In this document: positions 38,574 to 56,892 of the stretch, piece by piece | Layout: every line of letters starts with the position of its first letter | Position numbering within the stretch: position 1 is the first letter of the stretch | Source of the DNA: Lachnospiraceae bacterium | GTDB lineage: Bacteria > Bacillota > Clostridia > Lachnospirales > Lachnospiraceae | Assembly (NCBI GenBank): GCA_017431515.1 | Contig: JAFRKV010000023.1 | Coordinates: forward strand, 1-64,000 | DNA: 64,000 nt | Direction of reading: 5' to 3' | The notes under the pieces: model-generated | Told to the model about the DNA's origin: nothing | Seen by the model: only the letters and a program-made list of their open reading frames with translations | Databases searched by the model: none | Position numbers and translations under genes: made by a program

Positions 38574-38597
38574 GAGTAAAGTTTCATAAGGATGGTA

Positions 38598-38770
38598 AAC
38601 GGTGCCGGCGGGTGTAACCGCGCCGGATAATAGGGAAACAGGTGCAAGACCTGTGCGATCTCGTCACTGTGAGTACGGAGTGGGATTGTCGTTCTGAAAG
38701 GAAGCCACTGGGGGAGCCCGGGAAGGCAGACGATCACATGAAGAGGTACGAGCCAGGAGACCTGCCGTTT
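38598..38770 (+). ncRNA. Cobalamin riboswitch aptamer
   Basis: All conserved blocks are in order: GGTGCCGGCGG (38601 on), GCCGGATAATAGGGAA (38622-38637), GGTG-CAAGACC stem, TCACTGTGA (38664-38672), the GCCACTG...GGGAAGGC helix (38703-38727) and a full B12 box AGCCAGGAGACCTGCC (38751-38766). It binds adenosylcobalamin or a related corrinoid and turns the operon down when B12 is plentiful. It sits upstream of terminator hairpins and 140 bases before the first gene, so control is probably transcriptional. Confidence 0.95.
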
Positions 38771-38824
38771 ATTGGTACGGGAAGACATTCCAAAGTCACG
38801 AGTCATTGGCTGTACTGCACGCAC

Positions 38825-38910: not shown

Positions 38911-40548
38911 ATGAAAAAGAAGCTATGTCCGATTCTGCTGACGGGATTGCTGGCGGCTGCCATGCTGACCGGGTGTGCCCAAACAGGAGAGGCTGCGGGT
39001 ACAAAGGATACGGAGGCAAAGGCTTCCGAAGCGCCGGAGACAACGGAAGCGCAGGAAACGGATGGGCAGACCGACGAAGAGAAAGCCGCAGAAGTTGCAG
39101 CATTGATCGATGCCATCTATGTGCAGGAGAGGACGGATCAGACCGACGAACTCTGCGCACAGGCAAAAGCAGCATGGGACGCGCTGACGGATGCGCAGAA
39201 AGAACTGGTGGAAGGAGAAAATGCGGATCCGGATTATTTCGGCAGAGATACCGGAGACGCCTCCAAGGACGATCCGTTGAATGCTGACGGGATCGGAGAA
39301 AAGGAGATTCTTGTCGTAAGCTTCGGCACATCCTTTAACGACAGCCGCGCAGAAGACATCGGCGGTGTGGAGAAAGCCATTCAGGAAGCCAATCCCGATT
39401 GGGATGTGCGAAGAGCCTTTACGGCGCAGATCATCATCAATCATATTCAATCGAGAGACGGGGAAAAGATCGATAATGTGGAGCAGGCACTCACGCGTGC
39501 GGTAGACAATGGTGTCAAAACGCTTGTGATCCAGCCGACCCACCTGATGCATGGTGCGGAATATGACGAACTGGCAGAAGTTGTGGATGCCTATGCGGGA
39601 AAGATTGATGAGATCGTGATCGCGGAACCGCTGCTTGGAGAAGTCGGATCGGATGCCACCGCCATCAATGAAGACAAAAAGATCGTCGCGGAAGCCATTG
39701 TGGCGGAAGCGGTCAAGAATGCAGGGTATGACAGCCTGAAGGATGCAGCGAAAGACGGGACGGCCTTTGTCTTTATGGGACACGGCACCGCCCACACCGC
39801 AAAAGTCAGTTACAGCCAGATGGCGACACAGATGAAGGATCTCGGCTACGACAACGTCTTTATCGGAACCGTCGAAGGGGAGCCGGAGGAAACTGCCTGC
39901 GAAAACATCATCGCAGATGTGAAGGACGCAGGCTATCAGAAGGTCATTCTGCGCCCCCTTATGGTAGTGGCAGGGGATCATGCGAACAATGATATGGCAG
40001 GAGACGATGAGGACAGCTGGAAGAGCATGTTTACGGCGGACGGCTCCTTTGATCAAGTGGACTGCCAGATTGCCGGACTCGGAAGAATCCCGGAGGTGCA
40101 GACACTTTACGTCGCACATACGGCGGATGGGATCGGGAACCTTTCCTCCGCCGGTACGGAGGGTGCTGCGGCGGCCTCTGCAGATACGCTTGCAGACGGA
40201 ACCTATGACGCAAAGTTTACAACGGACAGCACCATGTTTAAGGTGAATGAAGCATGTCACGAGGGTGGCACTCTGACCGTTCAGGACGGGAATATGGTCA
40301 TCCATATCAGTCTCCCCTCAAAGAATATTGTCAATCTGTACCCGGGATTTGCGTCCGATGCGCAGAAAGAAGGGGCAGTGCTTCTGGAACCCACGGTGGA
40401 TACTGTGACCTATGATGACGGAACGACAGAGGAGGTCTATGGATTTGATGTGCCGGTGCCGTATCTGGACAAGGAATTTGACCTGGCTTTGATCGGGACA
40501 AAGGGCAAGTGGTATGACCATAAGGTGTCTGTATCCGTACGACAGTAA
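38911..40548 (+). CDS. cbiK: Surface-exposed (lipoprotein) sirohydrochlorin cobaltochelatase CbiK with extra C-terminal domain
   Basis: 545 residues. A lipoprotein signal (lipobox LTGC) sends it outside the membrane. A helical spacer (about 55-120) precedes a full CbiK chelatase domain (about 127-410): VVSFGTSFNDSR, THLMHG (His211/His214), FMGHGT (His291) and VAGDHANNDMAGD (His357). CbiK inserts cobalt into sirohydrochlorin. A C-terminal domain (about 420-545; FDVPVPYLDKEFDLAL, KGKWYDHKVSV) is of a β-sandwich kind common on clostridial surface proteins; I think it NEAT-like. It is the first gene after the B12 riboswitch. An extracytoplasmic CbiK with bound haem is known in Desulfovibrio, but how an outside chelatase serves a cytoplasmic pathway is unclear. 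Confidence 0.85.
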   Translation: MKKKLCPILLTGLLAAAMLTGCAQTGEAAGTKDTEAKASEAPETTEAQETDGQTDEEKAAEVAALIDAIYVQERTDQTDELCAQAKAAWDALTDAQKELVEGENADPDYFGRDTGDASKDDPLNADGIGEKEILVVSFGTSFNDSRAEDIGGVEKAIQEANPDWDVRRAFTAQIIINHIQSRDGEKIDNVEQALTRAVDNGVKTLVIQPTHLMHGAEYDELAEVVDAYAGKIDEIVIAEPLLGEVGSDATAINEDKKIVAEAIVAEAVKNAGYDSLKDAAKDGTAFVFMGHGTAHTAKVSYSQMATQMKDLGYDNVFIGTVEGEPEETACENIIADVKDAGYQKVILRPLMVVAGDHANNDMAGDDEDSWKSMFTADGSFDQVDCQIAGLGRIPEVQTLYVAHTADGIGNLSSAGTEGAAAASADTLADGTYDAKFTTDSTMFKVNEACHEGGTLTVQDGNMVIHISLPSKNIVNLYPGFASDAQKEGAVLLEPTVDTVTYDDGTTEEVYGFDVPVPYLDKEFDLALIGTKGKWYDHKVSVSVRQ

Positions 40549-40560
40549 AAAGGGGAAACC

Positions 40561-42144
40561 TTGCGAAAAAGAAGGGACATCTCAAAAAGAATCATAGGTT
40601 TGTGCGGCAGCGTGGCAGTCACGCTGCTGTGCTTTCTTTTGCTGACCTCCTGCGCGGCGCAGGGGGTTCCTTTGTCGTCCGGGGAAAAGGCGGAAGACGC
40701 TCCGTCAGAAGAGAGCGCATTATCTGTGGAGATCACCCTGGAGGGAGGTTCCGGAAAGGCCTGGATCGAATCCCCTGTTTCCGTGGAAAAGACGGAGGAC
40801 GGATACCTTGCCACGTTTGTCTGGAGCAGCGAAAACTATGATTATATGATCGTGGACGGCGTTCGTTATGAGAACGGGAATCCCTGGGGATCGTCCACCT
40901 TTACGGTGCCCGTAAAAAGTCTGGATATCCCGTTGTCTGTCATTGCGGATACGGTTGCGATGAGTAAGCCGCATGAGATCGAGTACACGATCCATTGGAA
41001 GACAGAAGGAAATGAGGAGAGTGCAGAAACCGGCAAGGAAGCGTCTTTTGCCGGGACACAGTCTTCTGCGGGATCCGGACAGAAACCCGATCCGGAGGGG
41101 CCGTCCTTTTCTTCTTTAGAGAAGACCGGAGAGATGCCCCTTTCCTATGCAAAGCAGTTTTCCGTGGAAGAATACGGTGATTACCGGCTGCTTCAGATCG
41201 GAGGATACGGCGCATATCTGGTTGTGCCGGAGGGTGCCCCTGTTCCCTCAGATCTGCCGGAGAATGTGACAGTATTACAAAAGCCCTTTGATAAAACCTA
41301 TCTTGTCTCCACGTCGGTGATGGATTTTATCCGCGCATTGGATTGTCTGCCCATGGTGCGTCTGACGGGAACAAAGGCGGAGGACTGGTATATAGAAGAG
41401 GCCAGGGAAGCACTTGAGAATGGAACCCTTCTTTATGCGGGGAAATATCGCGCGCCGGATTATGAACTGCTTTTGAGGGAGGGCTGCAATCTGGCAATTG
41501 AAAATACCATGATCGAACATGATCCGGCTGTGAAAGAAAAACTAACGGAATTGGGCATCCCGGTCTTGATCGAGACCTCCAGTTATGAGAGCCATCCTCT
41601 CGGACGACTGGAATGGATCAAAGTATACGGTCTTCTTTTTGACCGGGAGCAGGAGGCAAAGGATTTTTATGATGCCCAGCTGCGGCTGATCGAGCCGGTG
41701 ATGGAACAACCGCGGACGGACGTCACGGTCGCGTTCTTTTCCGTGACATCAGGCGGACAGATCACGGTACGAAAGCCGGGTGATTATATCTCGGAAATGA
41801 TCGCGCTCTCCGGCGGAACCTATGTGGCTCCTGCAGGAACCGGTGATGCGGCGCAGATGCTGTCAACCGTGAATGTGCAGTTGGAGGACTTTTATGCGGC
41901 AGCGCGGGATGCGGATATTTTGATCTACAACAGTACGATCGAAAACGAACTGGATACGGTAGATGAATTGATCGCAAAGAACGCTTTGTTTGCCGATTTT
42001 CAGGCAGTCAGGGAGAAAGAAGTGTACTGCACGGGAAAGGATTTTTTTCAGCAGGTCACGGGCATGGCATCGTTTATGGAGGATCTGCAGACGATCTTTA
42101 CGGGAAACGGACGGACATTGTCTTATCTGGAGAAGTTGCATTGA
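40561..42144 (+). CDS. ABC transporter substrate-binding lipoprotein (BtuF/TroA-like) with N-terminal β-domain
   Basis: 527 residues from TTG 40561 (GGGGAAA upstream; no ATG or GTG is better placed before the signal). Lipoprotein signal with LLLTSC. Residues about 45-160 form a β-rich domain (VEKTEDGYLATFVWSS, FTVPVKSLDIPLSV) resembling the C-terminal domain of the preceding CbiK. The rest is a class III binding protein (KPFDKTYLVSTSVMDFIRA, ENTMIEHDPAVKEKL, SYESHPLGRLEWIK). It should deliver a ligand to the FecCD-type permease next door; B12 control points to a corrinoid, cobalt chelate or other tetrapyrrole. The exact ligand is unknown. Confidence 0.82.
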   Translation: MRKRRDISKRIIGLCGSVAVTLLCFLLLTSCAAQGVPLSSGEKAEDAPSEESALSVEITLEGGSGKAWIESPVSVEKTEDGYLATFVWSSENYDYMIVDGVRYENGNPWGSSTFTVPVKSLDIPLSVIADTVAMSKPHEIEYTIHWKTEGNEESAETGKEASFAGTQSSAGSGQKPDPEGPSFSSLEKTGEMPLSYAKQFSVEEYGDYRLLQIGGYGAYLVVPEGAPVPSDLPENVTVLQKPFDKTYLVSTSVMDFIRALDCLPMVRLTGTKAEDWYIEEAREALENGTLLYAGKYRAPDYELLLREGCNLAIENTMIEHDPAVKEKLTELGIPVLIETSSYESHPLGRLEWIKVYGLLFDREQEAKDFYDAQLRLIEPVMEQPRTDVTVAFFSVTSGGQITVRKPGDYISEMIALSGGTYVAPAGTGDAAQMLSTVNVQLEDFYAAARDADILIYNSTIENELDTVDELIAKNALFADFQAVREKEVYCTGKDFFQQVTGMASFMEDLQTIFTGNGRTLSYLEKLH

Positions 42145-42145
42145 T

Positions 42146-43168
42146 ATGAATCAAAAGCGGTTTGTTTTCACAATCACAGGGTTATGCATCGCCATTTTTC
42201 TGCTTGCAGTGGTCAGCCTTTTTTCCGGAACCGTTGCAATCTCGGGTTCCGAACTGAAGGCAGTCTTGCTGGGTCAGGTAAAAGAGGGGATGCATGTCAA
42301 CATCCTGTTTCAGATCCGGCTTCCCCGGCTGATCGGTGCATTGGTGACCGGCGGGGCCCTGGCCCTTTCGGGTTATCTGCTGCAGACCTTTTTTCATAAT
42401 CCCATCGCGGGTCCGTTTGTGCTGGGGATTTCTTCCGGCGCAAAACTGACGGTGGCGCTTGCAATGGTATTTCTTTTATCGAAGGGGTGCCGGATCGGAT
42501 CCGCGGGACTGGTGCTGGCAGCCTTTGCCGGGGCAATGGCGGTCATGCTCTTTGTGCTGCTGCTTTCTCTGAGAGTGAGAAGCATGAGCATTCTTGTGGT
42601 CTGCGGTATCATGGTGGGCTATATTTGCGCTGCGGTGACGGATCTCGTGGTGACCTTTGCCGATGATTCCAATATCGTCAACCTCCATAACTGGTCGCTG
42701 GGCAGCCTTTCGGGGATCGGGATTCCGGAGGTGGAACTGATGTCCGGGATTGTGCTTTGCTGCTTTGTCTTTGTTCTGTTTCTGTCCAAGCCCATCGGCG
42801 CGCTCAGGCTGGGAGAGGCTTATGCCGCCGGTGTCGGGGTGAACGTGAAGCTTCTGCGTGTGTTTTTGATCCTGGCCTCGAGCCTTTTGGCAGCATGCGT
42901 GACAGCGTTTGTCGGTCCGGTTTCCTTTGTCGGCATTGCGGTTCCGCATCTGGTGAAGAGTGCCGCCGGGACCACCTCACCGTGGAAAATGATTCCGCTT
43001 TGCTTTTTAGGCGGAGCAGCGATCACCATGCTGTGTGATCTGATCGCCAGAACGGTTTTCGCGCCGACGGAAGTAAGCATCAGTTCGGTGACGGCGGTGC
43101 TGCTGGTGCCGGTGGTACTGTGGATCATGTTGAAAAAGAAAAAAGAAGGTGGTGGGTCTTATGCATGA
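42146..43168 (+). CDS. FecCD-family ABC importer permease (BtuC-like)
   Basis: 340 residues from ATG 42146, one base after the upstream stop; the longer frame inside the previous gene is not family sequence. About ten helices and the FecCD signatures RLPRLIGALVTGGALALSG, HNPIAGPFVLGISSGA and the ATPase-contact region FVGPVSFVGIAVPH. It forms the membrane channel of a vitamin B12/iron-siderophore/haem-type importer. Position between binding protein and ATPase domain and under the cobalamin riboswitch favours corrinoid or a cobalt tetrapyrrole. Confidence 0.92.
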   Translation: MNQKRFVFTITGLCIAIFLLAVVSLFSGTVAISGSELKAVLLGQVKEGMHVNILFQIRLPRLIGALVTGGALALSGYLLQTFFHNPIAGPFVLGISSGAKLTVALAMVFLLSKGCRIGSAGLVLAAFAGAMAVMLFVLLLSLRVRSMSILVVCGIMVGYICAAVTDLVVTFADDSNIVNLHNWSLGSLSGIGIPEVELMSGIVLCCFVFVLFLSKPIGALRLGEAYAAGVGVNVKLLRVFLILASSLLAACVTAFVGPVSFVGIAVPHLVKSAAGTTSPWKMIPLCFLGGAAITMLCDLIARTVFAPTEVSISSVTAVLLVPVVLWIMLKKKKEGGGSYA

Positions 43169-45515
43169 AGAGCAGGGAATCCGCACAGAAGTGCTCACCA
43201 TCGGATATGACAGCGATCTGATGAAAGAGATCACGTTTGCGGTCAAGAGCGGGGAGATCGTGAGCATCATCGGACCGAACGGCTGCGGAAAGTCGACCCT
43301 GTTAAAGACGCTGGCGGGACATCTGAAGGAAAGAGGCGGACTCATCTATCTGGATGGAAGAGAACGGGCCTCGTTTGAGAAAAAAGAGATTGCAAGACGT
43401 CTTTCCATGGTGATGACGGAGCGGATCCATCCGGAGCTGATGACCTGTCGTGAAGTGGTGGCGACGGGGAGATATCCCTATACGGGACATTTCGGCATCT
43501 TAAGCGCGTCGGATCAAAAGATCATCGAAGAAGCGCTTGATTCCGTGGATGCGCAGGAGATCGCAGACCGCCTGTTTTCCAATCTCAGTGACGGGCAGCG
43601 GCAGCGCATCATGCTGGCAAGAGCAGTAGCCCAGGAACCGGACATCCTGATTCTGGATGAACCGACCTCTTATCTGGATCTCAAATACCGGATCGAACTG
43701 CTGACAAAAATCAGGAAACTGGCTGCGCAGAAAGGCATCGCCGTGCTTTTGTCCATTCATGAGCTGGAGGCGGCCATGCGGATTTCGGATACGGTTGTCG
43801 CCATGAACCGTGAAGGGGTGCAAAGGATCGGCAATGCGGAGGAGGTTTTTACGGAACCCTTTATCCGGGCGCTGTATGGGATAGAAGATATGGATGTTTC
43901 CGTTTTGGGAAGCACCCCCTGGAGAATGTCCGGGAACCGTGAATCCGGCGAATCGGAAGCGGACATGCCGGGCAGGATCACGGAAGGCGCTATGGCATCT
44001 GCGCATAGGACGTTTGGCAATGCAAAAGTGATCATGGTGCAGGGAACGATGTCGAATGTGGGGAAGAGCCTCCTGACGGCGGCATTATGCCGGATTTTTA
44101 CGGAGGACGGCTATCGGACGGCGCCCTTTAAGTCACAGAACATGGCGTTAAATTCCTATGTTACGAAAGACGGATTGGAAATGGGAAGAGCGCAGGTCGT
44201 GCAGGCGGAGTGTTGCAGAAGAGAGGCGGCTGTGGAGATGAATCCCATCCTTTTGAAGCCGGTGAGTGACCAGCGGTCTCAGGTGATCGTGAACGGGCGA
44301 CCGGTTTCCAACATGAATGTAAAGGAATACTATGCCTACAAAAAGGACTGTATCCCCGTTGTGCTGGAGGCATATCAACGTCTTTCCGAAACATCGGAGA
44401 TCATTGTGGTAGAAGGCGCGGGATCACCGGCGGAACTGAATCTGAAGGAGGATGATATCGTCAATATGGGTCTGGCAGCGCTTCTTTCGGCGCCTGTGAT
44501 CCTGGTTGGAGATATCGACCGCGGCGGTATTTTTGCGCAGCTGATCGGGACGGTGGATCTTTTGGAAAAAGATGAAAGAGAGCGCATCGCAGGGCTGGTT
44601 GTCAATAAATTCCGCGGGGATGAGGCGTTTTTTGCCAAAGGGATCGAGATTCTTGAGACGAAAACAGGGAAACCTGTTCTCGGAACCATTCCCTGGCTGC
44701 CGCTTTCTTTTGAGGAGGAGGACTCCCTTGCCGACAGGCTGGAAAGACATGAAAAAAGGGACTTTCAGATCGCAGTGGTGCGCCTGCCGCATATGGCAAA
44801 TTTTACGGATTTCGCCACCTTCGATCAATTGGAGGAAGTCGGTGTTTCCTATACGGATCGTGCGGAGGACCTTGTCGACAGTGATCTCATCCTTCTTCCG
44901 GGAACCAAAAATACGATCGCGGATTTAAGATGGCTGAAAAAAAACGGATTGTATGACGTGATCCGTTCAGAGGCAAAAAAAGAAAAGCTGATCATCGGAA
45001 TCTGCGGCGGTTATCAGATGCTGGGAAAATGGATCCGTGATCCCGGGCATATGGAGTGCGGCGGTGAAGAAGCGGGACTCGGCCTTCTCAATACGGAGAC
45101 GGTGTTTGGGACAGAAAAGATCCGTACTGCGTTTGAAGGCATTGTTGAAGATGCGGAAAAAGGGCTTGCTGCTTTGCGGGGCTGCAGGGTCAAAGGATAT
45201 GAAATCCACATGGGTGTTACAGCGATCGGGGAAGGAACGCGTCATTTCACCTCCGGCGGCACCGGTTGCTGCAGTGGCACGGTGTTCGGCACCTATGTGC
45301 ACGGGTTTTTTGACTGCAGGGAGATTGCGGCGGGTGTCATTGAAGCAGCGGCCGCAAGACGCCGGAAAGTGGTTGATACCGGCAGACTGAAGGATTACAC
45401 GGACTACAAAGACACGCAGTATGCGAAGCTGGCATCTGCCGTAAGAGCGCATCTGGATATGAAAAGGATTTATGAGATGATGGGACTGCCTTATGACAAA
45501 AAAAGAACTGTTTGA
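43161..45515 (+). CDS. cbiP: Fusion of ABC importer ATPase and cobyric acid synthase CbiP
   Basis: 784 residues in one uninterrupted frame. Residues 1-255 are a FecE/BtuD-type ABC ATPase: Walker A GPNGCGKST (38-46), signature LSDGQRQR (142-149), Walker B ILILDEP (Asp166/Glu167). After a ~30-residue Glu/Ser-rich linker comes a full-length cobyric acid synthase from about 288: MVQGTMSNVGKS P-loop, KPVSDQRSQV, and a class I amidotransferase with Cys615 in GICGGYQMLG and His714 in TYVHGFF. It would both energise the importer and amidate adenosylcobyrinate diamide side chains b, d, e and g. ATG 43161 overlaps the permease stop. Start, linker and both active sites look intact. Confidence 0.9.
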   Translation: MHEEQGIRTEVLTIGYDSDLMKEITFAVKSGEIVSIIGPNGCGKSTLLKTLAGHLKERGGLIYLDGRERASFEKKEIARRLSMVMTERIHPELMTCREVVATGRYPYTGHFGILSASDQKIIEEALDSVDAQEIADRLFSNLSDGQRQRIMLARAVAQEPDILILDEPTSYLDLKYRIELLTKIRKLAAQKGIAVLLSIHELEAAMRISDTVVAMNREGVQRIGNAEEVFTEPFIRALYGIEDMDVSVLGSTPWRMSGNRESGESEADMPGRITEGAMASAHRTFGNAKVIMVQGTMSNVGKSLLTAALCRIFTEDGYRTAPFKSQNMALNSYVTKDGLEMGRAQVVQAECCRREAAVEMNPILLKPVSDQRSQVIVNGRPVSNMNVKEYYAYKKDCIPVVLEAYQRLSETSEIIVVEGAGSPAELNLKEDDIVNMGLAALLSAPVILVGDIDRGGIFAQLIGTVDLLEKDERERIAGLVVNKFRGDEAFFAKGIEILETKTGKPVLGTIPWLPLSFEEEDSLADRLERHEKRDFQIAVVRLPHMANFTDFATFDQLEEVGVSYTDRAEDLVDSDLILLPGTKNTIADLRWLKKNGLYDVIRSEAKKEKLIIGICGGYQMLGKWIRDPGHMECGGEEAGLGLLNTETVFGTEKIRTAFEGIVEDAEKGLAALRGCRVKGYEIHMGVTAIGEGTRHFTSGGTGCCSGTVFGTYVHGFFDCREIAAGVIEAAAARRRKVVDTGRLKDYTDYKDTQYAKLASAVRAHLDMKRIYEMMGLPYDKKRTV

Positions 45516-46575
45516 ATTACAGGGGAAGATGCCCGATCCCGAGGTGTACACAAAGATAAAGCAAAATTGGGATGCACTCGCGAAGCCCATCGACGGTCTC
45601 GGCGTGTTTGAAGAGATTCACTGCAGGATCGGCGCGATCAGACGGGAATGTCATCCCGACCTTTCAAAGAAGGAGCTTCTGATCCTCTGCGCAGACAACG
45701 GCGTGGTGGCGGAAGGCGTCACACAGACCGGACAGAAGGTGACGGCGCAGGTCGCATCGCTCATGGCGAAAGGAAAAAGCACTGTCGGGGTCATGGCAAA
45801 AAACTATCCGTTGTCCATCGTGCCGGTGGATATCGGGATCAACGGGATGCAGGAGACAGAGGGCCTGCTGTATCGCAAGGTGGCGTCCGGAACGGAGGAC
45901 TTTTTGAGAGGGCCGGCAATGACCGAGGAACAATGCCTGGCGGCGATTGAGATCGGCATGGAGCTGGTGCGGGACGCAAAACAGCGGGAGGTCGGCCTCG
46001 TCCTGACGGGAGAGATGGGGATCGGCAATACAACTACAAGCACAGCGCTGTTTTGCGCATTGACAGGTACAAACCCCGAGGAGGTTACGGGGCGGGGAGC
46101 GGGACTGGATGATGCGGGGCTTCAAAAAAAGAAGGCAGTGATCAAAGAGGCGCTGCGGTTTCACAATCTCACGGAGTCTGACAGGTCATTCAGCCGGGAA
46201 GCGGCTTTTGAAGCTTTATGCAGGGTGGGCGGTCTGGATCTGGCTGGGATGGCCGGCATTTTTCTCGGCGGGATGCAGTGCGGTCTGCCGGTTGTGATCG
46301 ACGGACTGATCAGTGCCGTGGCTGCGCTCACAGCAGAGCTGCTTTTGCCGGGCTGCAAAGCGTTTATGATTGCTTCTCATGCCGGAAAAGAACAGGGGTG
46401 CCAACGGGTGTTGAAGCTTCTCGGCCTCAGGAGCGTGATCGATGCGCAAATGGCGCTGGGAGAGGGGACAGGCGCCTTGCTGCTCCTTCCGATGCTGGAT
46501 ATGGTCTTTGCATTGTATGAGGAAGGAACAGACTTTGCTGATACGGAAATCGCGGAATACAAGAGGCTGGGCTGA
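45493..46575 (+). CDS. cobT: Nicotinate-nucleotide:dimethylbenzimidazole phosphoribosyltransferase
   Basis: 360 residues, the usual length. It makes alpha-ribazole phosphate from a lower-ligand base and nicotinate mononucleotide for the nucleotide loop of cobalamin. Family motifs include KPIDGLGVFEE near the start, TGEMGIGNTTTSTAL, VTGRGAGLDDAGL, and GEGTGALLLLPML with the catalytic Glu. ATG 45493 lies within the end of the previous gene (23-base overlap). No gene for making dimethylbenzimidazole is in the window, so the base may be another benzimidazole or taken up. Confidence 0.95.
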   Translation: MTKKELFELQGKMPDPEVYTKIKQNWDALAKPIDGLGVFEEIHCRIGAIRRECHPDLSKKELLILCADNGVVAEGVTQTGQKVTAQVASLMAKGKSTVGVMAKNYPLSIVPVDIGINGMQETEGLLYRKVASGTEDFLRGPAMTEEQCLAAIEIGMELVRDAKQREVGLVLTGEMGIGNTTTSTALFCALTGTNPEEVTGRGAGLDDAGLQKKKAVIKEALRFHNLTESDRSFSREAAFEALCRVGGLDLAGMAGIFLGGMQCGLPVVIDGLISAVAALTAELLLPGCKAFMIASHAGKEQGCQRVLKLLGLRSVIDAQMALGEGTGALLLLPMLDMVFALYEEGTDFADTEIAEYKRLG

Positions 46576-47105
46576 TGGTGGTGTTTGTGACGGGAAAACC
46601 GGACAGCGGAAAATCAAAGATCGCGGAAGACAGAGCTGTACAGATGGCAGAGGGAGATCTTTACTATCTGGCGACCATGAAGATCTGTGATGAGGAAGGC
46701 AAAAGGAGAGTGGAGAAACATCGTCTGCAGAGAGCCGGAAAAGGGTTTGTCACCATCGAATGTCTTTATGAGATAAGGCAGGTAATTGGGCGCCTCAGAT
46801 CACCGGCGAAAAGCACGGTGCTTCTGGAATGTATTCCGAATCTGGTTGCCAATGAGATGTTTGAAAACCCGGATCGATCCTTCCCGACGGCGGATGGGGT
46901 GGAAGCGTTTCTGGAACCTCTGTATAAGGAGATATGCGGTATGGCAAAAGAAATCGGAAACCTGGTGATCGTCAGTGCGGAATATGATGCCGTCTCAACG
47001 AAGGGGGAAAAAGCCACCGATGCCGAAACGGCAATCTATCTTTCCGCGATCAGTGCCATGAACCGGAGACTGACGGATCTTGCAGATGAGGTGGTGAGGA
47101 CATGA
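46575..47105 (+). CDS. cobU: Adenosylcobinamide kinase / cobinamide-phosphate guanylyltransferase, divergent CobU
   Basis: 176 residues, the CobU length. It phosphorylates adenosylcobinamide and then attaches GMP. The P-loop reads TGKPDSGKS where most CobU proteins have GGARSGKS, and YYLATMKICDEE with KHRLQR follows the family plan. The later conserved blocks are weakly kept: VSAEYDAVSTKGEKATD stands where VSNEVGxGIVP is usual. Position between cobT and cobS (ATG shares one base with the cobT stop, ATGA overlap with cobS) supports the role. Confidence 0.85.
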   Translation: MVVFVTGKPDSGKSKIAEDRAVQMAEGDLYYLATMKICDEEGKRRVEKHRLQRAGKGFVTIECLYEIRQVIGRLRSPAKSTVLLECIPNLVANEMFENPDRSFPTADGVEAFLEPLYKEICGMAKEIGNLVIVSAEYDAVSTKGEKATDAETAIYLSAISAMNRRLTDLADEVVRT

Positions 47106-47890
47106 GGCAGATATTTCGTTGGATGGCGTTTTCTCTGTCTTTGTATTCCAAAATTCCGATGCCGCGGTTTCCATGGGAGGAAAAGGACAGGAAAGGAAGC
47201 CTTCTTTTTTTCCCGCTGGTGGGAATTCTCCTGGCGCTGCTCATGTATGGCGCGGATTGGCTGCTTGTCCTGGCAGGCGCGCCGGTTTTTGTACGGGCAG
47301 TGGTGCTGACGATCCTTCCGATCGCCCTGACAGGCGGCTTTCATCTAGACGGGTACATGGATACCACGGATGCATTGTGTTCTTACGCGGAGCGGGAGAA
47401 AAAGCTGGAGATCTTAAAGGATCCGCATTGCGGCGCGTTTGCGGTCATCGGACTTGTCAAAACCGTGCTTCTGCTGGCGGCAGCCATGTATGTGATTGCC
47501 GGTGCCGGCGCGCTCCGATACTCTCTTGTACCGGGCGGGATCTTTGTGCTCAGCAGATGCTTTTGCGCAGTCATTTCCCTGCGGATAAAAAAAGCGAAGA
47601 CGGACGGAATGCTGTGTGAGGAGACAAAAGGAGCGGGAAAGGGAATCCTGACAGGCGTATGGGCTTTTCTGCTGTTGTCTGTCGCTGTCATGCTGGTGCA
47701 GGATTTTTGGCATGGCCTGTTGATTCTGGGGACGTATGTTCTGTCGGCCCTTTTTTATCGGCGGAAGATGCTGAAGGAATTCGGCGGGGTGACGGGGGAT
47801 ACCGCAGGATGGTTTGTTGTTTGCGCAGAGACATTTTCGTGCGCGGTATATGCGGCAAGTCTTCTGGTACAGCCGCTGTTTGCGGGATGA
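47102..47890 (+). CDS. cobS: Adenosylcobinamide-GDP ribazoletransferase (cobalamin synthase)
   Basis: 262 residues with about six to seven membrane helices. The signature GGFHLDGYMDTTDAL with its repeated acidic residues and the following KDPHCGAFAVIG block identify CobS, which joins adenosylcobinamide-GDP to alpha-ribazole (phosphate) at the membrane. The start overlaps cobU (ATGA). The length is normal and the motif intact. Confidence 0.93.
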   Translation: MRQIFRWMAFSLSLYSKIPMPRFPWEEKDRKGSLLFFPLVGILLALLMYGADWLLVLAGAPVFVRAVVLTILPIALTGGFHLDGYMDTTDALCSYAEREKKLEILKDPHCGAFAVIGLVKTVLLLAAAMYVIAGAGALRYSLVPGGIFVLSRCFCAVISLRIKKAKTDGMLCEETKGAGKGILTGVWAFLLLSVAVMLVQDFWHGLLILGTYVLSALFYRRKMLKEFGGVTGDTAGWFVVCAETFSCAVYAASLLVQPLFAG

Positions 47891-47904
47891 GAGGAGGTTG
47901 CGGG

Positions 47905-48531
47905 ATGAGGAGAACCTGCGTCCTGCTGCGCCATGGTCAGACGCCGGGTAACGTAAGGCGATGTTATATCGGCTGCGGAACGGATGAGGATCTGACGGAA
48001 GCGGCTAAACAGGCCGGATCACATGACTGTGCAGAGATCAGGAAGGTGTTTTGCGGAGTTTACGCCGTCTGTGCAAGCCCGATGAAGCGGGCATTATCAA
48101 CCGCCGCTTTTTTTACGGAACCGGAAAAGATTCTGGTTGTGGATGCACTTAAGGAAATGGATTTTGGACCCTTTGAGGGAAAGACCTATGAGGAACTGAA
48201 GGACAGATCGGACTACCTTGCATGGATCAATAGTGGCGGGGAGAAGACTCCCTTCGGGACGGAAAAGAAAGGGGACTTTATCAGACGAAGCACAGAGGGG
48301 TTTCAGGAGGCATTGGTCAGAAGCCTGCCCTGTAAGGATCTGGTTGTGGTCTGCCACGGCGGAACCATCATGGCCGTGATGTGTGAACTGACCGGAGGAG
48401 CGTATTTTTCATTTGCGGCGGAGCATTACGGGGGATACCGGCTGGAGTTGGAGCAGGAGGATGAAAGAGTACATTTGCTGTCATATGATCGCTTTGGCGG
48501 TCGGGTATCTTCTGGATCTTCTGATCGGTGA
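47905..48531 (+). CDS. cobC: Histidine phosphatase, alpha-ribazole phosphatase type
   Basis: 208 residues from ATG 47905 with GAGGAGG at 47891-47897; the frame is open upstream within cobS but has no site there. The phosphohistidine motif LLRHGQT, the second arginine in ASPMKRAL, the acid in EMDFGPFEGKTYEEL and the late His in VVCHGGT mark a phosphoglycerate-mutase-like phosphatase. In this position it most likely removes the 5'-phosphate from alpha-ribazole phosphate or adenosylcobalamin phosphate. The C-terminal end (SSGSSDR) overlaps the next gene. Confidence 0.85.
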   Translation: MRRTCVLLRHGQTPGNVRRCYIGCGTDEDLTEAAKQAGSHDCAEIRKVFCGVYAVCASPMKRALSTAAFFTEPEKILVVDALKEMDFGPFEGKTYEELKDRSDYLAWINSGGEKTPFGTEKKGDFIRRSTEGFQEALVRSLPCKDLVVVCHGGTIMAVMCELTGGAYFSFAAEHYGGYRLELEQEDERVHLLSYDRFGGRVSSGSSDR

Positions 48532-49441
48532 TCCGCACTGGTTTCCGCATCCGGTCAGATTCATGGGACGCCTGATCTCCTGTCTGGAGCAAAAATGGAA
48601 CCAAAACCGGGTGGCCGGCGGGGTATGGATGACTGTTACGGTGCTGCTTGTCACCGGTGTTGTCACATCCGTTCTTTTTTTCGGAAGCTATTGTTTGCAT
48701 CCGGTCATTGGGATGATCATGGAAGCGGCACTGACCTGTATGGTCCTGGCGGCAAAAAGCCTGTGGGTGGAAAGCAGACCGGTGTATCTGGCATTGGAAA
48801 GCGGCGATCGTAACGGCGCAAGGAAGGCGCTCTCCGGAATTGTCGGACGCGACACGGAGCGGCTTGATAAGGACGGGATCACGCGGGCTGCCGTGGAGAC
48901 CGTGGCGGAAAATACATCGGACGGCGTCATCGCCCCGCTGTTTTATGTCTTCTTTTTCGGGCCGGTTGGCGGGATGCTCTATAAGGCCGTGAACACCATG
49001 GACTCCATGGTGGGATACCGGAATGAGCGGTATCTTTTCTTCGGACGCGCGGCGGCGAAACTGGATGATGCGGCAAATTTTCTTCCGTCGCGTCTCAGCG
49101 CGTTTCTGCTGATGCTGTCCGCAGGGATTCTCCGGATCGGATCAAAGGAGTATCATCCCATTTTGGCCGGAAGAATCTGGAAAAGAGATCGTTTTCGCCA
49201 TCAAAGTCCCAACAGCGCGCAGACAGAAAGCGCCTGCGCGGGAGCACTCGGGATCGTTCTCGGCGGGAATTCGTATTACGGGGGAAAGCTTGTGGAAAAG
49301 CCTTTGCTCGGAGACCCGCTGCGTCAGATTGAAACAAAGGACATCAAACGCGCCGCGGGATTGATGCTTGTTTCGGAGTGCTTGATGATGGCAGCTGCAG
49401 AGACAGGACTATGGGTTTTGTATCAGCTGTGGTCATTCTGA
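48461..49441 (+). CDS. cbiB: Adenosylcobinamide-phosphate synthase CbiB
   Basis: 326 residues from ATG 48461 (GGAG with seven-base spacing); an in-frame ATG at 48485 gives 318 residues and matches the family N-terminus (MIALAVGYLLDLLIGDPHW) equally well. CbiB attaches aminopropanol phosphate to cobyric acid at the membrane. Motifs: GDPHWFPHPVRFMG, SGIVGRDTERLD, ETVAENTSDGVIAPLFY and NTMDSMVGYRNERY. It overlaps cobC by at least 47 bases. Multiple hydrophobic helices as expected. Confidence 0.9.
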   Translation: MKEYICCHMIALAVGYLLDLLIGDPHWFPHPVRFMGRLISCLEQKWNQNRVAGGVWMTVTVLLVTGVVTSVLFFGSYCLHPVIGMIMEAALTCMVLAAKSLWVESRPVYLALESGDRNGARKALSGIVGRDTERLDKDGITRAAVETVAENTSDGVIAPLFYVFFFGPVGGMLYKAVNTMDSMVGYRNERYLFFGRAAAKLDDAANFLPSRLSAFLLMLSAGILRIGSKEYHPILAGRIWKRDRFRHQSPNSAQTESACAGALGIVLGGNSYYGGKLVEKPLLGDPLRQIETKDIKRAAGLMLVSECLMMAAAETGLWVLYQLWSF

Positions 49442-49467
49442 AGGAATGGGATCGGGAGGAGCTGAGC

Positions 49468-50541
49468 GTGCAGCATGGAGGAGATATCTATCGTAATAAG
49501 GTGGAACTGGATTTTTCCGTCAGTCTGAATCCGGTTTCACCACCGGAAGCGGTGGCGGCTGCTTTAAAGGAGAGCATGGGTCATGTGTCGTGCTATCCGG
49601 ATTTACTGCAGACAGAAGTGAGACAGGCGATTGCCGCGTCTGACGGGGTGACAGCGGAGGAAGTGCTGGCGGGAAACGGCGCGTCAGAGCTTCTTTCGGC
49701 TGTGGTCGCATATTTGCACCCCCATCAGGTGACGTTACTGGAGCCGGGTTTTTCCGGATACCATCATGCGCTGCGGCAGTGGGAGGATTGTAAAATCAGG
49801 GAAGTCACGATGGAAGCATCGACGGATCCTGCCGGACAGCTTTTTTCCATCCTGTGGGAGGGCGTGGAGACAGAGGTGCTGTTTCTTGCAAATCCCTGGA
49901 ATCCGCTGGGCGTGAATCTGGAGGATACGCTGCTTATGCAGACGCTCTCCCGCGCGGAACGGCAGGGGACGCCGATGATTTTGGACGAGAGTTTCTTTTG
50001 GCTTTCGGATGCGGCGGAAAGAGTACCTTCAAAAGCGGGAACGTGGATCCGGCAGTTTCCGAACCTTTTTATCATCCGCTCCTATACGAAGATTTTTTCC
50101 ATGCCGGGTGTACGGATGGGGTATCTTTTGTCACAACCGGACAATTGTAAAAAGGTGCAAAAAAAACTTCCGGAATGGAATCTTTCGATACAGGCACAGG
50201 AGCTGATGCCGGTGTGCGCACGGATCCTGGGGGAGGGAAGTTTTCTGCGGGAAACGATGGCATACATCAAACGGGAACGTTCCTTTCTACAAAAGGAACT
50301 AACGGAAAGAGGGTTCCTTGTGTATCCGGGTGATACGGTGTTTCTGCTGTTTCGGGGTCCGGAGACCCTTTTTGAACTTCTTTTGAAAAAAAAGATTATG
50401 ATCCGTCCTGTGCAAAATGGACAAAAGCAAAACAGAACCCTTTACCGGATCGCAATAAAGGATCATGAGAGCAATCTGAGGCTGTTGCATTGTTTGGATG
50501 AGGTGCAAAAAAATGACAGAACTGACACCGGAAGAAATTGA
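49468..50541 (+). CDS. cobD: L-threonine-O-3-phosphate decarboxylase (CobD-type, PLP-dependent)
   Basis: 357 residues. It makes aminopropanol O-2-phosphate for CbiB, which is encoded just upstream. The start is taken as GTG 49468, seven bases after GGGAGGAG, giving the family beginning QHGGDIYRN; the open frame extends upstream into cbiB but is not conserved. Class I/II aminotransferase features: GNGASELLSA, NPWNPLGVN, DESFFWLSD and the PLP lysine K208 in SYTKIFSMPGVRMGYL. Histidinol-phosphate aminotransferase is the look-alike, ruled less likely by context. Confidence 0.88.
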   Translation: MQHGGDIYRNKVELDFSVSLNPVSPPEAVAAALKESMGHVSCYPDLLQTEVRQAIAASDGVTAEEVLAGNGASELLSAVVAYLHPHQVTLLEPGFSGYHHALRQWEDCKIREVTMEASTDPAGQLFSILWEGVETEVLFLANPWNPLGVNLEDTLLMQTLSRAERQGTPMILDESFFWLSDAAERVPSKAGTWIRQFPNLFIIRSYTKIFSMPGVRMGYLLSQPDNCKKVQKKLPEWNLSIQAQELMPVCARILGEGSFLRETMAYIKRERSFLQKELTERGFLVYPGDTVFLLFRGPETLFELLLKKKIMIRPVQNGQKQNRTLYRIAIKDHESNLRLLHCLDEVQKNDRTDTGRN

Positions 50542-51142
50542 AAAACGAAGTTTTGCGATCATTGAGAGCGAACTGAAGGAGCAGGGCGTGACATTGTGTC
50601 CGGAAACCGCACCGGTTGTCATGCGTTGTATCCATACGACAGCGGATTTTGAGTATGCAAAGACGCTGCGGTTTTCCGGTGGAGGAATCCGGATCCTGCA
50701 GCAGCTGATCCAGGACGGCGCGGATCTGGTAACGGACACTAATATGGCTTATACGGGAATCAACAAACGGGTACTGCGGCAATACGGGGGAGAGATCCAT
50801 TGTTTCATGGCGGAAGAGGATGTGGCCGAGATCGCGCGGCAAAAGGGCGTGACAAGGGCAAGCGTCAGCATGGAAAAGGCCATGCATTCTTCCAAACCGA
50901 CCATTTTTGTGGTCGGGAATGCGCCGACAGCATTATTGACACTCTGGGAGCATTATCAAAAAGGGGATTACACGCCGGCCTTTGTCATCGGCGTGCCGGT
51001 GGGGTTCGTGAATGTGGTGGAAGCAAAGGAACGCATCCTGCAAAGTGATCTTCCCTGTATCGTCAATCAGGGAAGAAAAGGCGGCAGCAACGTGGCGGCT
51101 GCCATTGTAAATGCGGTGCTGTATTCCATGGGGGAACGATAG
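50513..51142 (+). CDS. cbiC: Cobalt-precorrin-8 methylmutase CbiC
   Basis: 209 residues from ATG 50513 (AGGTG upstream), overlapping cobD by 29 bases. Family motifs: PEEIEKRSFAII, VMRCIHTTADFEYA with the catalytic His, TDTNMAYTGINK and NAPTALLTL. It moves the methyl group from C-11 to C-12 to give cobyrinate. Length is typical of CbiC. Confidence 0.93.
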   Translation: MTELTPEEIEKRSFAIIESELKEQGVTLCPETAPVVMRCIHTTADFEYAKTLRFSGGGIRILQQLIQDGADLVTDTNMAYTGINKRVLRQYGGEIHCFMAEEDVAEIARQKGVTRASVSMEKAMHSSKPTIFVVGNAPTALLTLWEHYQKGDYTPAFVIGVPVGFVNVVEAKERILQSDLPCIVNQGRKGGSNVAAAIVNAVLYSMGER

Positions 51143-51143
51143 G

Positions 51144-52256
51144 TTGAAGCTGAGAAACGGGTTTACAACCGGAAGCTGCGCGGCGGCTGCGGCAAAGGCT
51201 GCGACGGAAATGCTGCTGACAGGAAGTGATCTTGCTTCCGTGGAGATCCAAACGCCTGCGGGGATCGCATACCACCCTGCGGTGGAGGCGGTCAGCAGGG
51301 AGGGGCAGACTGTCCGCTGTGCGGTGCGAAAGGATGCGGGGGACGATCCGGATGTGACGAACGGAACCCTTATTTTTGCAACGGTGGGGTTTCTTTCATC
51401 GGATGGAGAACCGGTGCAGATTGAAGCAGGGGAGGGCGTCGGGACGGTGACGAGACCGGGGTTGGATCAGCCGGTCGGGCAGCCTGCGATCAATTCCGTA
51501 CCGCGAAAGATGATTACGGAGTCCGTCAGGGAAGTGATGGATGCGTTGGACTGTAATCGGTCTGTGCGCGTGGTGATTTCCGTGCCGGAGGGGAAGAAAC
51601 TGGCGGCGCGTACCTTCAATCCGCGGCTCGGGATCGAAGGAGGGATTTCCAACATCGGAACCACAGGTGTGATTGAGCCTATGAGTACAAAAGCGCTCCT
51701 TGCCACAATTCGCGCGGAGCTTTCCCAGCGGAAGGCGGAGGGGGCGGAAATAGCCATCGTTTCGCCCGGCAATTACGGACTCGCTTTCCTGAAAGAGCAT
51801 TACGGATACGACCTGGACAAGGCCGTGAAATGCTCCAATTATCTCGGAGACACCATTGATCTGGTACGGGAGGCCGGTTATCCGGGGATGCTGCTGATCG
51901 GACATGTGGGAAAACTGATCAAGCTTTCCGGCGGGATCTTCAATACCCACTCCAAAGAGGCGGACTGCAGGATGGAGCTGCTTGCCGCCGCAGCCGCAAA
52001 AAGCGGAGGGGAGCTGTCCTTGCTGCAACGGATTTTATCCTGTACGAATACGGAGGAAGCCTGCGCGTATCTGAAAGAAGCAGGCATTTTAAAGCAGACA
52101 TTTGCGGAAGTGATGACTCGCATTTCTTTTTATACGAAAAAAAGAGCGCAGGGAAAAGTCCACGTGGAGTGCATTGTTTTTTCCCTGAACCATGGGGTGC
52201 TGGGGGAAACAGAGCACGCAAAGGAGTATCTCGGAAAAGGGGAATGTCATGATTGA
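51144..52256 (+). CDS. cbiD: Cobalt-precorrin-5B C1-methyltransferase CbiD
   Basis: 370 residues from TTG 51144, one base after the cbiC stop; this start gives the family N-terminus KLRNGFTTGSCAAAAAKA. A longer frame begins in cbiC but adds non-family residues. CbiD methylates C-1 in the anaerobic route and is a marker of that route. Further motifs: GVGTVTRPGLDQPVGQPAIN, PRLGIEGGISNIGTTGV and IGHVGKLIKLSGGIFNTHS. The TTG start may keep expression low. Confidence 0.93.
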   Translation: MKLRNGFTTGSCAAAAAKAATEMLLTGSDLASVEIQTPAGIAYHPAVEAVSREGQTVRCAVRKDAGDDPDVTNGTLIFATVGFLSSDGEPVQIEAGEGVGTVTRPGLDQPVGQPAINSVPRKMITESVREVMDALDCNRSVRVVISVPEGKKLAARTFNPRLGIEGGISNIGTTGVIEPMSTKALLATIRAELSQRKAEGAEIAIVSPGNYGLAFLKEHYGYDLDKAVKCSNYLGDTIDLVREAGYPGMLLIGHVGKLIKLSGGIFNTHSKEADCRMELLAAAAAKSGGELSLLQRILSCTNTEEACAYLKEAGILKQTFAEVMTRISFYTKKRAQGKVHVECIVFSLNHGVLGETEHAKEYLGKGECHD

Positions 52257-53019
52257 TTTTGTGGGAGCCGGACCCGGTGCGATCGACCTGATTACGGTCC
52301 GGGGAAAGACATTGCTGGAAAAAGCGGATGTGGTGATCTATGCGGGAAGCCTCGTGAATCCGGCGCTTTTATCCTATACGAAAGAAGGCGCACAGCTTTT
52401 TGACAGTGCGAAGATGACATTGGAAGAAATTCTGCGGGTCATGATTGAGGCAGATGCTGTGGGAAAGAACGTGGTGCGCCTGCAGACCGGGGATCCGAGC
52501 CTTTACGGCGCGATTCGGGAACAGATGGATGCATTGGAGAAAGAAGGGATTTCCTATCGATCCTGTCCCGGTGTTACCGCGGCATTCGGCGCTGCGGCCG
52601 CCTGTGATCTGGAATACACCCTGCCCGGTGTGACGCAGACCTTGATCCTGACCAGAATGACTGGAAAAACAGCTGTGCCGGAGCGGGAGGAAATCCGCTC
52701 GCTTGCCGCACATCAGGCATCTATGGCAATCTATCTGAGCGCAGGGATGTTGAAGGTGCTGTCAGCGCGCCTGACAGAGGGGGGCTATCCTCCGGAGACG
52801 CCGGCATTGCTGGTCTATAAAGCGACCTGGCCGGAGGAAGCGATCTATCCCTGTACGATTGCAACGCTGCCGGAAACAGGGGAGCGGCATCAGGTAACGA
52901 AAACAGCATTGGTGCTTGTGGGCGAGGCGCTTCGCACAAAGGATTATGAAAGGTCAAAACTGTATGACCCCGCATATACCACGCTCTTTCGTACCGGCAG
53001 TGATGGAGGAACCGCATGA
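52249..53019 (+). CDS. cbiF: Cobalt-precorrin-4 C11-methyltransferase CbiF
   Basis: 256 residues from ATG 52249 with AAAGGGGA upstream, overlapping cbiD by eight bases. A tetrapyrrole methylase: VGAGPGAIDLITVRG at the start, YAGSLVNPALL, LQTGDPSLYGA and CPGVTAAFGAAA. CbiF/CobM adds a methyl group at C-11. The YAGSLV and SLYGA blocks separate it from CbiL, CbiH and CobA-type methylases. Confidence 0.93.
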   Translation: MIDFVGAGPGAIDLITVRGKTLLEKADVVIYAGSLVNPALLSYTKEGAQLFDSAKMTLEEILRVMIEADAVGKNVVRLQTGDPSLYGAIREQMDALEKEGISYRSCPGVTAAFGAAAACDLEYTLPGVTQTLILTRMTGKTAVPEREEIRSLAAHQASMAIYLSAGMLKVLSARLTEGGYPPETPALLVYKATWPEEAIYPCTIATLPETGERHQVTKTALVLVGEALRTKDYERSKLYDPAYTTLFRTGSDGGTA

Positions 53020-54050
53020 GGAAGATGGCAATCTGTTTCTCCCGGGCAGGAAGGGAGCTTATTCAAAGACTCCGCCGGGCAGAAAAGGAGAAGGGGCTGG
53101 ATCCTGTGGAAGGATATGATTCGACGCGACAGGATGATGCAGCGGAAACCAAAACAATCGGGGAACGAACCGGAGATGGTCTCCTCCCTTATCAGGGAAC
53201 CGTGGAGGAATGGGCTCAGATGGCCGCGGAAATCCACGCCTGTGCGATCTTTGTCGGCGCCACGGGAATTGCGGTGCGTGCGGTGGCGGGGATCGCCGCG
53301 GACAAGCTGACGGATATTCCGGTGATTGTGATCGATGATCAGGGCGAGTTTGTGATCCCGCTGCTTTCCGGACATGCGGGAGGCGCCAACCGGATTGCCA
53401 TGACGCTTGCGGCGCTTCTTGATGCGGTTCCGGTCATCACCACCGCGACGGATCTGCACGGCGCGTTTTCCGTCGATGTGTTTGCCGGAGAACACCGGTT
53501 AACCATCCGGAACCGGGACGGGATCAAACGGGTTTCTGCCAAGGCATTGGAAGGAAAACCCGTCACGCTTTCCATCAAGCATTTCCCGCCGGAGTCTCCG
53601 GTGGATGTGATTGTGGCAGATGAAACAGACCGGGAATATACGCTGCTTTTATCACCGAAACCCTATGTGCTCGGGCTCGGCATGAGAAAGGGAAAAGATC
53701 CCGGTGAGACGGAAGCTTTTGTGAAACAGTGTCTGGAGCAGCACGGCATCTCGATGGAGGAACTCTACGCAATCGGCACGATTGATCTGAAGGAGCGGGA
53801 AGAGGCGATCCGGCGCCTTTCCAGAAAATACCGGATACCGGTCCTGAGCTTCGATACGGCGCTGCTGGACCAGGCAGAAGGGGAATTTACTGCTTCGTCA
53901 TTTGTGAAAGAGACTGTCGGTGTGGACAATGTCTGTGAGAGAGCCGCCAGCCTTGCAGCAGGCCCTCAGGCTGTCCGGGTAATCGGAAAAACAAAGGGAG
54001 ATGGTGTGACGCTGGCTGTTTATCGAAGGAAAGAGGGATTGTATGTCTGA
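53016..54050 (+). CDS. cbiG: Cobalt-precorrin-5A hydrolase CbiG
   Basis: 344 residues; ATGA overlap with cbiF. CbiG opens the delta-lactone and releases acetaldehyde, contracting the ring. Family features: FVGATGIAVRAVAG, DDQGEFVIPLLSGHAGGANRIA and the C-terminal CobE-like half starting at VLGLGMRKGKDP. Length and domain order are normal. Confidence 0.93.
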   Translation: MRKMAICFSRAGRELIQRLRRAEKEKGLDPVEGYDSTRQDDAAETKTIGERTGDGLLPYQGTVEEWAQMAAEIHACAIFVGATGIAVRAVAGIAADKLTDIPVIVIDDQGEFVIPLLSGHAGGANRIAMTLAALLDAVPVITTATDLHGAFSVDVFAGEHRLTIRNRDGIKRVSAKALEGKPVTLSIKHFPPESPVDVIVADETDREYTLLLSPKPYVLGLGMRKGKDPGETEAFVKQCLEQHGISMEELYAIGTIDLKEREEAIRRLSRKYRIPVLSFDTALLDQAEGEFTASSFVKETVGVDNVCERAASLAAGPQAVRVIGKTKGDGVTLAVYRRKEGLYV

Positions 54051-56842: not shown

Positions 56843-56892
56843 GAGAGACGGTAGGAAACGGACTGTAAAAAGCCGTAGAACGGGACACGGGA

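Follow-up and report, generated by a model that had tools for sequence, protein, structure and literature searches.

What ties the ATPase of a membrane importer to cobyric acid synthase (CbiP) in a single polypeptide? The question is raised by a stretch of 64,000 nucleotides from a Lachnospiraceae bacterium (assembly GCA_017431515.1, contig JAFRKV010000023.1, positions 1 to 64,000 of the forward strand; hereafter the window), in which one open reading frame (ORF) encodes both a BtuD-like ATP-binding cassette (ABC) ATPase and CbiP. Judging from comparison with its relatives, this protein is probably the bifunctional, tethered product of two once-separate neighbouring genes that merged through adjacency, with no dedicated hand-over from one half to the other and with a tetrapyrrole as the importer's likely cargo. 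The fused ORF and its parts are:

43161..45515, forward strand: BtuD-CbiP fusion, 784 amino acids counted from the ATG
43161..43922, forward strand: ABC ATPase (BtuD) domain, about residues 1-254, with the Pfam ABC_tran match at 22-170
43923..44018, forward strand: variable linker, about residues 255-286, with low pair identity across fusions
44019..45512, forward strand: CbiP (cobyric acid synthase) domain, about residues 287-784, with the NF001989 match at 289-774

The ORF starts at GTG 43149 or ATG 43161, ends at 45515 on the forward strand and has no internal stops. Within the 784 residues Pfam recognises ABC_tran (22-170, 7.4e-33), CbiA (291-514, 1e-22) and GATase_3 (536-720, 2.6e-45). 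By both family score and kept catalytic residues, the C-terminal half is a cobyric acid synthase of the ordinary kind, with predicted activity: it passes the NCBIfam cut-offs of NF001989 (604 bits, cut-off 273) and TIGR00313 (480 bits, cut-off 310), and residues C615, H714, G301, K302 and S303 are invariant in all 12 aligned CbiP fusions. I take C615 and H714 to be the glutamine amidotransferase Cys and His, and G301, K302 and S303 to be the P-loop. The N-terminal half belongs with the ATPases of BtuFCD/FecBCD-type importers, with corrinoid transport as a putative role only. Its residues G38, P39, N40, G41, G43, K44, T46, SDGQ (143-146), D166, E167 and H200 are likewise invariant (12/12); presumably they make up the Walker A (the G38-T46 set), signature, Walker B and H-loop motifs. 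Both active sites thus appear intact, as a sequence-only reading of the window had proposed. The closest NCBIfam models to the ATPase are BtuD/FecE-like and below cut-off (NF008409, 201 of 375 bits; NF007082, 180 of 537), and it falls below the cut-off of every ABC model (BtuD, FecE, haem ATPase) among the 25 NCBIfam families listed. Since it lies under all the listed equivalog cut-offs, I give it no specific substrate name. The fusion is the sole match to the CbiP part in its own genome, where other ABC matches reach at most 85 bits against 1755 for the fusion.

That the ORF is a genuine in-frame fusion, as the same reading claimed, is borne out by its single intact frame, by the Pfam and NCBIfam domains and by its conservation in 14 genomes, the window's own and 13 others with the same domain order. 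The genome is a draft assembly (62 contigs, 82% complete), which could favour an assembly or sequencing artefact, but with 14 carriers, among them a congener (genome G301, 99% complete) whose fusion is 86% identical over its full length, an artefact is hardly credible and was rejected. Nor did the suggestion that an error had removed a stop at the junction hold. The congener carries the same fusion, and five family members keep the same gene order as separate genes with at least one stop between them; these unfused relatives preserve the arrangement that preceded the merger and do not point to an error in the window. One further record (L059) is identical to that of the congener and was counted once, and two more (L060 and L061, named records) share no more than 63% identity with any other fusion; all three are titled Lachnospiraceae. 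Apparent in-frame fusions in G169, G269, G174, G297 and G009, suggested by long open frames, were discarded because their sequences place one or more stops between the BtuD and CbiP parts.

Two of the four genomes of the genus match the fusion at 1e-40 or better, and both are fused (the window's own and the congener). Across the family 193 of 299 genomes match at 1e-40, a count that includes CbiP-only matches, and with the ATPase part alone as query 247 of 397 match at 1e-35. I read the ORFs of all 144 importer-type BtuD matches listed with E up to 1.0e-53, which lie in 143 of those 397 genomes. Sixteen of these ATPases are fused, to CbiP (12), CbiD (2), CbiC (1) or CbiA (1), and 128 are unfused. 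The CbiC fusion and both CbiD fusions are Pfam-confirmed, and the CbiA fusion, cut by a contig end, is identified without a Pfam check. At the level of the phylum 190 of 398 genomes match at 1e-100, and among the matches listed only one besides the window's own genome spans both domains (G443, from another family); it proved to be two ORFs, as did a Bacteroidota locus matching residues 7-774 (L109).

The change of partner points to adjacency. The gene that follows the 128 unfused ATPases, counted when a reference protein was recognised within -100 to +150 bases, is CbiP in 29 cases, CbiD in 6, CbiA in 5, CbiC in 3 and others in 9; 72 have another or no recognised neighbour and 4 lie at a contig edge. 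CbiP, CbiD, CbiA and CbiC all adjoin unfused ATPases, and thus all four fusion partners are ordinary neighbours. Some tail-less unfused ATPases overlap the CbiP gene (G337, G034, G184, G353) and others nearly touch it. Other neighbours have merged in such operons as well: CbiP-CbiC (L049, L050), CobD-CbiC (L044), CobD-CbiP (L097) and, in the window itself, CbiJ with two methylases. In a tightly packed operon headed by a riboswitch, the ATPase would merge with whichever pathway gene came next, be it CbiP, CbiD, CbiC or CbiA. The trees of the two halves allow one or two origins of the CbiP fusion. In the BtuD tree they fall into two groups and forcing them together is rejected (p 0.028), but when the unfused ATPase of G292 is added to the forced group the grouping is not rejected (p 0.46, 45-row test); the gene following that ATPase is peptidase-like by reading, not CbiP. 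The CbiP tree allows one clade of fusions (p 0.805).

As a separate matter, 100 of the 128 unfused importer ATPases extend more than 80 residues beyond the ABC domain, as a tail of about 90-160 residues (for example L055:7677-8777, reverse strand), and 28 do not. Among such tailed, unfused proteins the G009 ATPase was the one scanned; its tail matched no Pfam family.

The linkers of the 12 CbiP fusions are 17-48 residues long, and mean pair identity falls to 13% in residues 251-286 against 48% in the ATPase domain and 58% in the CbiP domain. This bears on whether the halves stay together at all, for an internal translation start or proteolysis would separate them in the cell and leave the fusion without physical consequence. 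An in-frame ATG at residue 278 (residue 282 of the longer ORF), with GGAAGG upstream, might serve as such a start, but it is missing from the congener, none of the 12 fusions has a Met where stand-alone CbiP starts (by reading of the alignment), and the linkers are too divergent to hold a conserved protease site. Separation of the halves is very improbable, and an internal start for CbiP was set aside.

The fusion lies within an operon whose other features are:

38583..38783, forward strand: cobalamin riboswitch at the operon head (Rfam RF00174, 109.2 bits, full model)
38911..40548, forward strand: CbiK-type exported lipoprotein with a C-terminal NEAT-like domain (Pfam CbiK at 131-406, 3e-71; lipobox LTGC at 19-22)
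40561..42144, forward strand: BtuF/IsdE-like binding lipoprotein with an N-terminal NEAT-like domain (Peripla_BP_2 at 250-494, 2.4e-26; lipobox LTSC; start codon uncertain)
42140..43168, forward strand: BtuC/FecCD permease (Pfam FecCD, 4.6e-73)
45493..46575, forward strand: CobT, the first gene past the fusion, overlapping the fusion's end (Pfam DBI_PRT, 1.1e-112)
46575..53019, forward strand: CobU-like, CobS, CobC, CbiB, CobD, CbiC, CbiD and CbiF
53016..58290, forward strand: CbiG, CbiH, CbiJ-CbiE-CbiT ORF and CbiA (CbiH 281 bits and CbiA/CobB 378 bits, both above cut-off; CbiG and CbiJ matched)
54788..56842, forward strand: CbiJ and two methylases in a single 684-residue ORF (CbiE-CbiT by position and methylase domains)

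The genes after the fusion stand in the order in which these lines name them, from CobT through CbiF and CbiG to CbiA. CbiB, CbiD and CbiF score above a cut-off, and CobS, CobC, CobD and CbiC are best matches under the cut-offs shown. The gene at 46575-47105 matched no model; presumably it is CobU-like, a name that fits its place in homologous operons. Beside the ATPase, Pfam identifies the remaining importer components, a FecCD permease and a Peripla_BP_2 binding protein. The BtuCD-like setting named by the sequence-only reading is upheld: the fusion lies behind the permease, and the predicted location of CbiP is the importer's inner face.

What would CbiP do there? The substrate of CbiP is an intermediate made within the cell by CbiC, CbiD, CbiF, CbiG, CbiH, CbiJ, CbiE and CbiT together with CbiA. 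The earlier proposal was that the importer brings in an incomplete corrinoid which the tethered CbiP amidates on arrival, and domain order, operon and kept catalytic residues are all consistent with this; passages of the review PMC8123684 also list cbrUVT under cobyrinate diamide uptake, so that import of such a compound has been proposed in another setting. But relatives join the same ATPase to CbiD, CbiC or CbiA, the linker is unconserved, the window has genes for CbiA and for the ring enzymes that produce CbiP's substrate, and cobinamide and cobalamin, the corrinoids commonly salvaged, already bear their side-chain amides, which is established chemistry. Amidation on entry is thus improbable. 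More generally, four different partners, a featureless linker and in-cell enzymes for the substrate argue against a dedicated hand-over to CbiP. Of the idea that transport and biosynthesis are physically coupled, the tether survives, whereas cargo transfer from transporter to CbiP is unlikely. Under the preferred explanation, merger by adjacency, the CbiP half would carry out its normal step of the corrin pathway, whose genes follow; the importer would form BtuC2D2, and a loose tether would then keep about two CbiP copies at the cytoplasmic face per importer. Co-expression and membrane tethering are the likely consequences of the fusion. That the same ATPase takes different partners is also a caution against reading function from one fusion.

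If incoming corrinoid is not what the importer serves, what does it carry? The pathway genes that are missing offer a clue. At the model thresholds used, SUMT is above cut-off in none of the 12 CbiP-fusion genomes (best hits 147-165 bits of 185, that of the window's own genome being its CbiF) and CobN is found in none of them. CbiL is above cut-off in two (G190, G080) and just under it in a third (G307, 156 of 163 bits), and in the remaining nine no hit exceeds 38 bits. Completeness is 90% or more in nine of the 12 genomes. Among the 299 genomes of the family draw, SUMT is absent in 25 of the 36 whose sole CbiK is linked to the importer, in 2 of the 56 with CbiK elsewhere and no importer, in 7 of the 39 with the importer and CbiK elsewhere, and in 113 of the 128 with no CbiK. 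The first two groups differ by Fisher's test at 6.8e-12, uncorrected for kinship. Here a CbiK counts as linked if it shares the importer's contig and lies no more than 9.5 kb away; CbiK was grouped among the matches listed, and 40 of the 299 genomes were left out (SUMT present in 22). Importer presence comes from the ATPase search, which is assumed to cover the same 299 genomes. At least one CbiK classed as elsewhere is a lipoprotein (G091), and in one of the two exceptions among the 56 (G135) an importer-type ATPase that narrowly misses the threshold lies 3 kb from CbiK.

All 12 CbiKs upstream of CbiP fusions carry a lipobox (by reading; in the congener the pattern also caught a spurious upstream site), and each of the 11 CbiP-fusion genomes searched for CbiK has one copy, adjoining the importer. 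G307 lies outside that search; the CbiK linked to its importer is a lipoprotein too. Wherever the 12 fusion genomes give a CbiX match, it falls inside one of these CbiK genes. The window's CbiK lipoprotein carries MGHG and AGDHA, which I take to be active-site His motifs; an exact-pattern search found no MGHG in the CbiK of G308. Its closest solved structures are CbiK (1qgo, 129 bits) and the haem-binding FetB (9b86, 126 bits). It fails the NCBIfam CbiK equivalog (186 bits, cut-off 400), and because of this sub-cut-off score I do not file it as a chelatase.

NEAT-like stretches lie at 40186-40545, C-terminal in the CbiK lipoprotein, and at 40651-41064, N-terminal in the BtuF-like protein. Relatives carry the two NEAT-like domains either as a lipoprotein of their own or attached to BtuF. 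The NEAT model PF05031 matches neither window copy and matches homologues weakly (L177, 1.3e-5, 26 bits of 32.8; L046, 0.022; L044, 0.087); scans of homologues L043, L045 and L175 gave no NEAT match.

In genomes that lack SUMT but keep the ring enzymes from CbiH onward, an importer accompanied by an exported CbiK and NEAT-like domains suggests that an early ring is supplied from outside. The CbiK lipoprotein and importer may thus supply an early cobalt-tetrapyrrole. Since SUMT is missing from all 12 genomes and the sole CbiK of the 11 searched is an exported lipoprotein, an early tetrapyrrole is more likely as cargo than an incomplete corrinoid; the importer probably brings in a tetrapyrrole that the ring requires, not a corrinoid that CbiP has still to amidate. 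A fuller proposal, which is tentative and which I hold possible rather than probable, is that these bacteria build cobamides from an early isobacteriochlorin that is metallated outside the cell and imported by BtuFCD. Sirohydrochlorin or factor III would be taken from neighbours, the CbiK lipoprotein would insert cobalt outside the membrane, and the NEAT-like domains would hand the metallated ring to the binding protein. BtuFCD import would be the first committed step, with the ATPase of this gate fused to pathway enzymes, in the window CbiP. Several observations weigh against such a cargo. The CbiK lipoprotein, under the chelatase cut-off, is equally near FetB and CbiK, and haem uptake by a FetB-like CbiK lipoprotein may be its role instead. 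Of the 36 genomes with an importer-linked CbiK and no other, 11 have SUMT. Most fused genomes lack CbiL, so that what enters them would need to be factor III-like, and NEAT support for the window copies is weak and comes through homologues only. If the proposal is true, the importer would be the one that tetrapyrrole precursor salvagers require, and a ring given its metal outside the cell would feed a cytosolic pathway. The operon matters more than the fusion: it is a testable candidate for how bacteria without the first corrin-ring steps obtain the ring and for why their only CbiK bears an export signal.

A second kind of fusion, between an ABC ATPase and CbiK (553-603 residues), occurs at 11 of 20 loci fetched (L283-L288, L290-L294), 16 of these 20 having been chosen for long frames, and at L064; Pfam confirms it in L064, L284 and L290. 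CbiK is further fused to a CbiH-like methylase in G059 and to porphobilinogen deaminase in G081 (L289, L297).

Does selection, and not adjacency alone, keep ATPase-enzyme fusions near the point of entry, so that the importer delivers its tetrapyrrole to an assembly line at the membrane? Four different pathway enzymes serve as partners, and ABC-CbiK, confirmed at three loci, is a parallel case, a second transport-ATPase/cob-enzyme fusion in the family that hints at more than chance. In the 299-genome draw SUMT is missing from the genomes of all 10 fused importers; the corresponding figures are 40 of 99 for genomes with an unfused importer (p 0.0002) and 22 of 35 for unfused copies adjoining a cob gene (p 0.042), both p values uncorrected for kinship. 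Fusion could be favoured where the cell depends on its importer. These points weigh against adjacency as the whole explanation, as does its basis in a census of importer ATPases and not in fusion rates over all neighbouring pairs. But the partners act at unrelated steps and match the gene order, the linker is unconserved, and once kinship is allowed for, the events may number only four or five. I therefore regard a selected assembly line as rather unlikely, and merger by adjacency as the explanation to prefer.

How does this locus compare with known systems? Like the BtuFCD/FecBCD-type importers (ATPases BtuD, FecE, FhuC) it has a binding protein, a FecCD permease and an ATPase with ABC motifs; unlike them, its ATPase is fused to CbiP and lies under the listed cut-offs, and its binding protein has an extra NEAT-like domain. 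The CbiP half shares with CbiP/CobQ (NF001989, TIGR00313) a full-length domain above both cut-offs and the catalytic residues, and differs in the ABC ATPase at its N-terminus. Exported CbiK-like proteins include the periplasmic CbiK of Desulfovibrio and IhtB of Porphyromonas. The window's protein resembles such proteins (haem-binding FetB, PDB 9b86) in belonging to the CbiK family by sequence and in bearing an export signal; unlike the others it belongs to a cob operon headed by a cobalamin riboswitch and is the sole CbiK found in its genome. The ABC-CbiK fusion likewise joins a transport ATPase to a cob enzyme, mostly in the same bacterial family, but by reading its ATPase is CbiO-like and its CbiK has no export signal.

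Tetrapyrrole precursor salvagers are a published class, mostly Firmicutes, in which the ring pathway is complete and dependence on 5-aminolaevulinic acid (ALA) was tested; section 13 and other passages of that paper name no importer for the precursors (PMC6461909). In these passages the likeness is that early steps are missing and ring and nucleotide-loop genes present; the difference is that here, of SUMT, CobN, CbiL, CbiK and CbiX searched, SUMT is missing in 12/12 and CbiL in 9/12, and a candidate importer is named. Because the corrin-ring set is incomplete (CbiL absent in 9/12, the sole CbiK exported in the 11 searched), I call these genomes salvager-like and do not file them as members. 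In agreement with the sequence-only reading, which knew of no functional description of such a fusion, no account of a BtuD-CbiP or ABC-CbiK fusion was found in literature titles and the opening lines of abstracts, a scope outside which most subscription journals and annotation databases lie, and passages of PMC3541065, PMC7689651, PMC8123684 and PMC6593275 describe no such fusion. Set beside these systems, the fusion is a new pairing of two known families.

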